A stretch of DNA of 64,000 nt from Anaerohalosphaera lusitana. GTDB lineage: Bacteria > Planctomycetota > Phycisphaerae > Sedimentisphaerales > Anaerohalosphaeraceae. Below, piece by piece: positions 49,756 through 51,401 of the stretch. The position numbers and the translations under genes were made by a program. The DNA is taken from NCBI RefSeq assembly GCF_002007645.1, contig NZ_CP019791.1:1736001-1800000 (forward strand), in the 5' to 3' direction. Within the stretch, counting starts at the first letter, position 1; each line of letters begins with the position of its first letter. Under the pieces are notes generated by a model. The model did no database searches, was not told the DNA's origin, and was given only the letters and a program-made list of their open reading frames with translations.

Positions 49756-50724
49756 CTACTGCGAAGCAATGACATCGTTATTTGCAGGGTTCTCATCAGA
49801 GACAAGGACATTGTCCTCTCTGTCATGTGGCAGGAACTTGTCGAAATTATTCAAAACTGGTTGAGCGCTCTGTTCGCCAACACGCTTTGCCCACTCAGTT
49901 GTTTCATTAGTGCGGTATTTCATCCAGATGTTGTCCTGGTTTACTCCGACATCTGCGCGTTTGTGGAAGGTTACGTGCATATCGTTGAAGAGCACGTTTT
50001 GACCCTCACGCTGGTGGTTACCTGAATTACTGAGAGCTTCAACCCATTTGGGGAGCGATTCCAGATCCTCAACATTGCTGGCTGAGTTAGCCCACGAAAA
50101 CGTTTTGGACATATAATCTTCGGAAGTTACATCGCCATCTACGGTCAGGGTGCTGTCAGTCCAGGGGTTCTTATCTGCCATAACAGCCATACTTGGATCA
50201 CTGCTGCCGCTTACTGGGCGAGCACGTCCGCCCGAGGGAGCGTAGGGCAATTGATAAGAATAACTGAGATTGTCATAAGGAGTATCACCGAAATCCCATA
50301 CTTCGATCAGGTCCACTCCCTCTGCCCTTACTTGTGGGGTTTCGCCCTCAAAGGCCTGTTCATCCGCGCTCTTACAGACAAACACTTTCGTGTCCACATC
50401 AGCTTCCTTTACCAGCAGATACAAACTGGACGAAACTGCAACTGCCGCATCGTTTCTTTCGGGCGTCCTGTCAGGAAGCTGCCAACTAGATCTCTTGTGA
50501 CGCCAGGTGTTATCGGCATCGAAGTGATGCACAGGATACTCGTCATCGTAGTCACTTGCGTATACTGCGACGGCGTTACCCAGGCCGCGGAGGTTTGATC
50601 CGCAGACAATTCTTTCGGCCATTCTCTTGACCTTGCCGAGAGCCGGCATCAGTATCGCCATCAGCATAGCGATGATCGCGATAACGACCAGCAGCTCAAT
50701 TAGTGTAAAACCTTTTTTCTTCAT
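49756..50724 (-). CDS. Type IV pilin-like / pseudopilin protein with large C-terminal domain
   Basis: A 322-residue protein with a prepilin leader: MKKKG followed by FTLIELLVVIAIIAMLMAIL. The cleavage site is after Gly5 and Glu10 is the conserved E+5. The helix continues into KVKRMAERIVCGSNLRGLGNAVAVYASDYDDEYP, typical of the planctomycete DUF1559-like or G-type pseudopilins. The long globular domain (about residues 60-322) is acidic; NSGNHQREGQNVLFNDMHVTF recalls the H-x-G-N-xx-F-D-GHV type ending found in that group, but is less strict. The gene lies behind an unusual structured leader (50761-50870). A strong AAGGAGAG Shine-Dalgarno precedes the ATG. Secretion or assembly machinery is not in the window. 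Confidence 0.92.
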   Translation of the reverse strand: MKKKGFTLIELLVVIAIIAMLMAILMPALGKVKRMAERIVCGSNLRGLGNAVAVYASDYDDEYPVHHFDADNTWRHKRSSWQLPDRTPERNDAAVAVSSSLYLLVKEADVDTKVFVCKSADEQAFEGETPQVRAEGVDLIEVWDFGDTPYDNLSYSYQLPYAPSGGRARPVSGSSDPSMAVMADKNPWTDSTLTVDGDVTSEDYMSKTFSWANSASNVEDLESLPKWVEALSNSGNHQREGQNVLFNDMHVTFHKRADVGVNQDNIWMKYRTNETTEWAKRVGEQSAQPVLNNFDKFLPHDREDNVLVSDENPANNDVIASQ

Positions 50725-50760
50725 CTTTTTCTCTCCTTAACTTTAGAGAATTACTTTAAC

Positions 50761-50870
50761 GATCGCTCTGTTTAGATCACACATGAATAAGTTCTGTTGT
50801 TTCGCCCCTACGCAGGGCATATCACCGGCAAAACCGGCTAATCCAGCGGTTACGCACCGCCAGAGCGATC
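50761..50870 (-). promoter_or_regulatory. Candidate structured RNA leader of the pseudopilin-like gene
   Basis: On the minus strand, within the 5' leader and ending 36 nt before the start codon. A perfect 10-bp helix closes the element (GATCGCTCTG 50761-50770 with CAGAGCGATC 50861-50870). Inside are three hairpins: GCGGT/ACCGC (50846-50860), CCGG/CCGG (50825-50837) and GCCC/GGGC (50804-50818). Two of the three carry the same loop sequence GCGT(A). A strong Shine-Dalgarno lies between this element and the gene. A junction of this kind is typical of riboswitch aptamers, but I could not match it to the c-di-GMP, TPP, cobalamin, SAM, THF or other classes I remember. Confidence 0.5.
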
Positions 50871-51401
50871 TCTAGTAAGGTTTTTGAAATGTACGACCAC
50901 ACAAAGCCTACGCAAAACTTCTGCAAACTTACCGGCCTTGTCTGTCAGAGCAGGTGCTCAACTAAGGTCGCATGGTTAGGAGGGTTCAGAAAAAGATATG
51001 AAAAGAAAACTTTATATGATTGCTGGTGAATATATGATATAAAAAGTTTCCGAACCTGTCCTTCTATTCCGCTTGTTCTGTTTCTGCTCTAACGCTAAAT
51101 TAGCACAAATCAAATCATTTTGTCAAGTCAAAATTTCACTCCGGGCGTCTTTACGGCCCATAATTTGTGGTTTCTCTTTACGAAAAACCACATCTAAGTA
51201 AATTATAGCCCATACGAGCTTGTTTTTCAACTTTTTACTGTCGTTTTGCCGGTGTTTTTCTGACCAATGTCCAAAAACCACGCATCGGATGGACCATGAA
51301 TCAGCCTGCAGGTATTTTTGTCAATTCTATCGCTTGAAAATCAGACGGATTCCGTTAATCTATCTGGCTAATTCAGGACGGCATTCATTAAAGGAAAAGA
51401 T
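50871..51401. other. Gene-free stretch between divergent genes, with further hairpins
   Basis: About 530 bp upstream of both the pseudopilin-like gene and the UDP-sugar pyrophosphorylase gene. It holds an 8-bp stem (ACAAAGCC 50901-50908 with GGCCTTGT 50934-50941, one G-T pair) and a 12-nt near-palindrome GAGCAGGTGCTC (50948-50959). A third copy of the TACGCA hexamer lies at 50909-50914. 51000-51260 is very AT-rich and likely holds the promoters of both genes. Confidence 0.4.

Follow-up and report, generated by a model that had tools for sequence, protein, structure and literature searches.

A structured leader RNA of a pilin-like gene

Comparative sequence evidence shows that a pilin-like gene is preceded by a real structured RNA, located in its leader and without a match in any known RNA family. 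With a probability of roughly 55%, we take it for a cis-acting leader of one orthologous pilin-like gene, whose core would dock a trans-acting factor and thereby set pilin translation. A new cis-regulatory RNA candidate had been proposed at this site by a first-pass annotation based on the letters alone; the homologues do covary, which was the test named there, and the proposal is thereby strengthened. In the window, i.e., the whole 64,000-nucleotide stretch of DNA analyzed, the element lies on the minus strand upstream of the gene with its ATG at 50724, and the RNA is the reverse complement of the sequence as presented. The features are as follows:

49756-50724, minus strand: pilin-like gene, 322 aa, N_methyl/prepilin signal (PF07963, E 7e-9; TIGR02532)
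50733-50738, minus strand: Shine-Dalgarno AAGGAG, assigned by its sequence
50742-50871, minus strand: whole element as matched by the held-out model R3 (39.8 bits, E 4.8e-7 in the window)
50746-50755, minus strand: place of the P' arm, AGTAATTCTC (GCAAATCTC in relatives), homologous by alignment
50761-50770, minus strand: X', the 3' arm of helix X, CAGAGCGATC, which a model that excluded the window aligns with the X' arms of relatives
50787-50794, minus strand: unpaired core GAACTTAT, matching the consensus GCAYTWAT at 7 of 8 positions
50804-50818, minus strand: hairpin H, GCCCTGCGTAGGGGC, with the family-conserved loop UGCGU; in alignment A3, 94% of its cells are paired and 3 of 4 pairs show two-sided changes
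50824-50838, minus strand: hairpin GCCGGTTTTGCCGGT, occupying the place of the P 5' arm of relatives (alignment A3, model R1)
50846-50860, minus strand: additional hairpin GCGGT-GCGTA-ACCGC, specific to this genome and absent from this place in homologous leaders
50861-50870, minus strand: 5' arm of helix X, GATCGCTCTG, forming a perfect 10 bp with 50761-50770; the X arms covary in relatives

The protein also carries a C-terminal motif, HQ..GQNVLFND.HV. Its genome of 4.25 Mb encodes about 62 pilin-like paralogues that resemble each other at the N-terminus; the element is found there only at the window's gene, and no second copy of the leader was detected. The perfect 10-bp helix, the three hairpins, the 33-nt stretch between the third hairpin and X' (50803-50771) and the 36 nt from X' to the start codon are all present on the minus strand as originally described. 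The minus-strand fold reaches -45.4 kcal/mol (z -4.76, none of 200 shuffles as good), and the plus strand gives a z of -3.54. The 10-bp repeat by itself is near the chance rate, as 10 perfect 10-bp inverted repeats with a spacer of 60-130 nt occur in the window compared to 2-9 in shuffled windows, and the case rests on the homologous leaders.

Homologous leaders and their conserved architecture

When 59 related genomes were searched at the nucleotide level, short adjoining matches were returned, covering the beginning of the pilin gene as well as its leader. The leaders collected in this way share a common block, CCCTGCGTnGGGG...GCACTTAT, as well as a helix just 5' of the ribosome-binding site. 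Further copies were found with a covariance model, R1, built from seven leaders. Of the 161 genomes of the order (Sedimentisphaerales, class Phycisphaerae), 129 were found to contain the orthologous pilin, and 67 orthologous leaders, including that of the window, were read. Two additional models were used: R2 contained helix X only and no P; the 17 leaders underlying R3 came from the same family and did not include that of the window. Alignments were either produced by MAFFT or fitted to the models. Since kinship of the sequences inflates shuffle tests, weight was placed on controls with slid partners, on the paralogue control and on the held-out model.

Reading from 5' to 3', X is followed after approximately 13-30 nt by P, and a linker of variable length separates P from hairpin H. 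Next come the core GCAYUWAU and X'; a short spacer then connects X' to P', which is succeeded by the Shine-Dalgarno sequence and the AUG. P and X' are 40-130 nt apart, and the distance from the end of P' to the AUG has a median of 23 nt (range 16-29, 65 leaders). In nearly all relatives, X/X' and P/P' cross, which by comparative prediction is an H-type pseudoknot, and their joint conservation suggests that both helices form in one molecule. This alters the picture of a domain of three hairpins closed by one helix given in the first-pass annotation: the closing helix is retained as X, but in nearly all relatives it is crossed by another long helix, P/P', which lies beside the ribosome-binding site and had been missed. 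Among the three hairpins only H is conserved, the other two being peculiar to this genome. Likewise, the loop GCGT(A), which had been noted as repeated, is conserved in the family as UGCGU of the third hairpin, but not in its other copy; in H, this loop is kept in the window's family while the stem changes by compensation. The 33-nt region that had been described as single-stranded holds the conserved unpaired core (GAACUUAU here). Several leaders of family f7 (L134, L148, L142, L124, L121) carry an additional domain between helix P and the core.

Covariation and controls

In a scan for crossing helices of this geometry, 55 of the 67 orthologous leaders scored above 99 or more of 100 dinucleotide shuffles, whereas none of 27 paralogous pilin leaders of the window's genome did so. 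The core was matched at seven or more of its eight positions in 44 of the 67 orthologous leaders (mean of 5.2 in shuffles), compared to 4 of 27 paralogous leaders. Two alignments, A2 and A3, were made from sequence alone. In A2 (26 sequences), 86.1% of the cells are paired, with 49 two-sided changes against 19.9 in shuffled alignments; in A3 (19 sequences, window included), the respective values are 79.8% and 55 against 23.1. When the partner strand was slid by 1-3 columns, pairing of the helices in A2 and A3 dropped to 28-55%. Alignment A4 (9 sequences) is too uniform and offers weak support only.

The largest alignment, A6, comprises 68 distinct R2 matches, of which about seven were judged false or decayed and, being retained, lower the result. 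Even so, two-sided changes are seen at 24 of the 27 pairs and amount to 215 cells, as compared to 46.8 after shuffling; 90.8% of the cells are paired, and sliding lowers this value to 31-49%. The nine main pairs of P are well kept, the two outermost, loop-side pairs poorly. As R2 held helix X only, the good behavior of the nine P pairs is independent of the structure in the model.

The window as a member of the family

Searching the whole 4.25 Mb genome with R3 returned the element of the window with an E-value of 3.2e-5, followed by matches with E-values of about 5. By this score, the window's element is the sole convincing match in its genome. Within the family, R3 gave one match each in 24 of 39 genomes. 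The window keeps X with 10 of 10 bp, H with its UGCGU loop and seven of eight core positions, and the element is positioned before the pilin orthologue with P' ending near -23. It adds two hairpins, one of them where relatives place the 5' arm of P.

For P' in the window, the best partners comprise 5-6 bp, namely GGATTA at 50839-50844 (crossing) and TTACT at 50874-50878 (nested), and 190 and 281 of 500 shuffles, respectively, gave partners as good. Hence, helix P is indistinguishable from chance in this genome and may have been lost, replaced or rewired. The automatic scan did choose a crossing pair in the window (score 44.5). Since this pair, GGTCGTACAT/ATGTGTGATC, differs from the conserved one, it was rejected and the score was not counted as evidence for helix P.

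Association with the pilin gene and distribution

At E ≤0.1, R2 has matches in 72 of the order's 161 genomes, and nearly all strong matches lie directly 5' of the pilin orthologue. Some genomes, such as G044 and G088, contain two or more pilin copies, each with its own element. In a sample of the class, 38 of the 39 genomes with R2 matches belong to the order, the remaining one having an inverted repeat. Outside the order, R2 gave only two marginal matches, both inverted repeats in one genome. No comparable signal was detected in seven leaders of the nearest out-of-order pilins, two of which reached 1/60 shuffles without the conserved sequences.

Matches in other contexts were rejected as copies before other genes. 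L198:105-277, an R2 match without a pilin, is a decayed leader RNA in which P' and the pilin gene are lost and X is still paired. Three further R2 matches without a pilin (L190, L195, L196) were judged to be long inverted repeats, and the 21-bit matches L203-L205 were taken as chance. L195 and L196, both from genome G185, are two copies of one repeat with arms around ACATTCTTAAGAAT, which is probably a small mobile element.

A nested variant

In the leaders L105/L308, L110/L306, L116/L307 and L305 (genera g9 and g16), the 5' arm of X follows the 5' arm of P, and the helices are consequently nested. The H loop and the core are the same as in the crossing forms, and the spacing is similar. No shuffle out of 60 was as good as the nested fold of L110 or of L116; L105 and L305 were judged by inspection. 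Among these leaders, the X stems vary by compensatory changes (CGTTTCC/GGAAACG, CGTTTCCT/AGGAGACG and CGCCTCCT/AGGAGGCG). If X were stacked on P, a similar shape would result from both wirings; in the pseudoknot, the linker between X and P would then bridge the stack. Such a rearrangement from pseudoknot to nested helices in one orthologous leader offers a rare view of a change in RNA fold topology during evolution.

Comparison with known RNAs

No Rfam 15 family matched in the window at the gathering threshold. Nor did the window or any of 19 related loci give a credible match at permissive E-values, c-di-GMP-I and c-di-GMP-II included, in agreement with the original statement that the element is not a known c-di-GMP class. 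No description of such an RNA turned up in text searches of an open-access library. Riboswitches for c-di-GMP are known 5' of pilin genes in Clostridioides difficile, and the c-di-GMP-II riboswitch contains a pseudoknot. The likeness consists in a structured leader before a pilin gene; topology, core and spacing differ. The translational preQ1-II and SAM-II riboswitches are H-type pseudoknots close to the Shine-Dalgarno sequence as well. In the present element, however, the Shine-Dalgarno sequence lies outside the last helix, about 10 nt past it, the stems are longer, and there is no Rfam match. HDV-like ribozymes have the strand order P1, P2, P3, P1', P2', resembling X, P, hairpin, X' and P'. 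This assignment was rejected, as the linkers are 13-30 and 40-130 nt long here and almost absent there, again without an Rfam match.

The use of covariation and gene association as evidence is shared with comparative-genomic searches for structured RNA candidates (PMC2864571 and later), and the text of PMC2864571 nowhere mentions pilins.

Proposed function and alternatives

The near-fixed distance to the AUG, the dedication to a single gene and the conserved unpaired core together suggest control of initiation or stability by a bound factor. The element is thus probably a cis-regulatory leader acting on initiation or stability of the pilin mRNA. The folded core would serve as docking site for a trans-acting factor, either a small ligand or a protein. 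Forming at the 5' border of the ribosome-binding site, it would set the amount of pilin translated, by way of altered 30S access or mRNA lifetime. Against such control count that no conserved helix sequestering the Shine-Dalgarno sequence was found, that P' and the Shine-Dalgarno sequence do not coevolve, that relatives have no promoter in a conserved position and that helix P is indistinguishable from chance in the window.

The association with one gene fits a dedicated regulator as well as a purely constitutive element. The main rival is accordingly a constitutive stabilizer or translation enhancer, in which the fold, without any sensing, would protect an abundant pilin mRNA from ribonucleases at its 5' end or hold the ribosome-binding site open. 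The restriction to one gene family, the location just beyond the ribosome footprint at near-constant distance and the retention of the helices under different connectivity in the nested variant are all compatible with this possibility. Nevertheless, a stabilizer has no need of a conserved unpaired core, a conserved hairpin loop or a pseudoknot, and we regard it as possible, though rather unlikely.

A special case of the preferred reading, the docking of a trans-acting factor, is a metabolite riboswitch of a new class, e.g., for a surface-attachment signal. The pseudoknot, the conserved unpaired core and loop, the fixed distance to the start codon and the precedent in C. difficile would suit a riboswitch; on the other hand, no Rfam class was recognized at permissive thresholds, only about a dozen unpaired bases are conserved, and the gene context is a single one, which makes this special case doubtful. 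Only tentatively do we raise the idea of an order-specific new riboswitch class that reads a signal and controls a surface-filament protein, its helices being wired as a pseudoknot or nested without loss of the core, i.e., a natural strand permutation.

An anti-Shine-Dalgarno switch, in which P' pairs with the Shine-Dalgarno sequence once helix P is open, is disfavored as very improbable. UCUC, complementary to GAGA of the Shine-Dalgarno sequence, is frequent in P', and a hairpin of -4.5 kcal/mol is predicted in the window. Yet P' and Shine-Dalgarno sequence of the same leader pair with -2.78 kcal/mol compared to -3.04 kcal/mol for swapped partners, and 196 of 200 swaps were as good or better; thus, there is no coevolution. 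Finally, chance hairpins or a DNA-level inverted repeat, in line with the near-chance rate of the 10-bp repeat alone, are refuted by covariation, the match of the held-out model and the paralogue controls.

With about 100 natural sequences, the family combines strong covariation and a near-fixed start-codon distance with restriction to one target gene. In these bacteria (planctomycetes), gene regulation has hardly been studied, and the element provides a testable handle on the control of one pilin among about 60 paralogues.

Upstream region of the leader

The best sigma-70-like promoter was found at 51230-51202, about 330 nt upstream of X. Across the leaders of relatives, no promoter was seen at a fixed distance from X. 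Just downstream of this strong promoter and upstream of the element, two adjacent hairpins, GTGGTTTTTCGTAAAGAGAAACCAC and GGGCCGTAAAGACGCCC, are located on the minus strand at 51139-51195, and both have CGTAAAGA in common, in or beside their loops.
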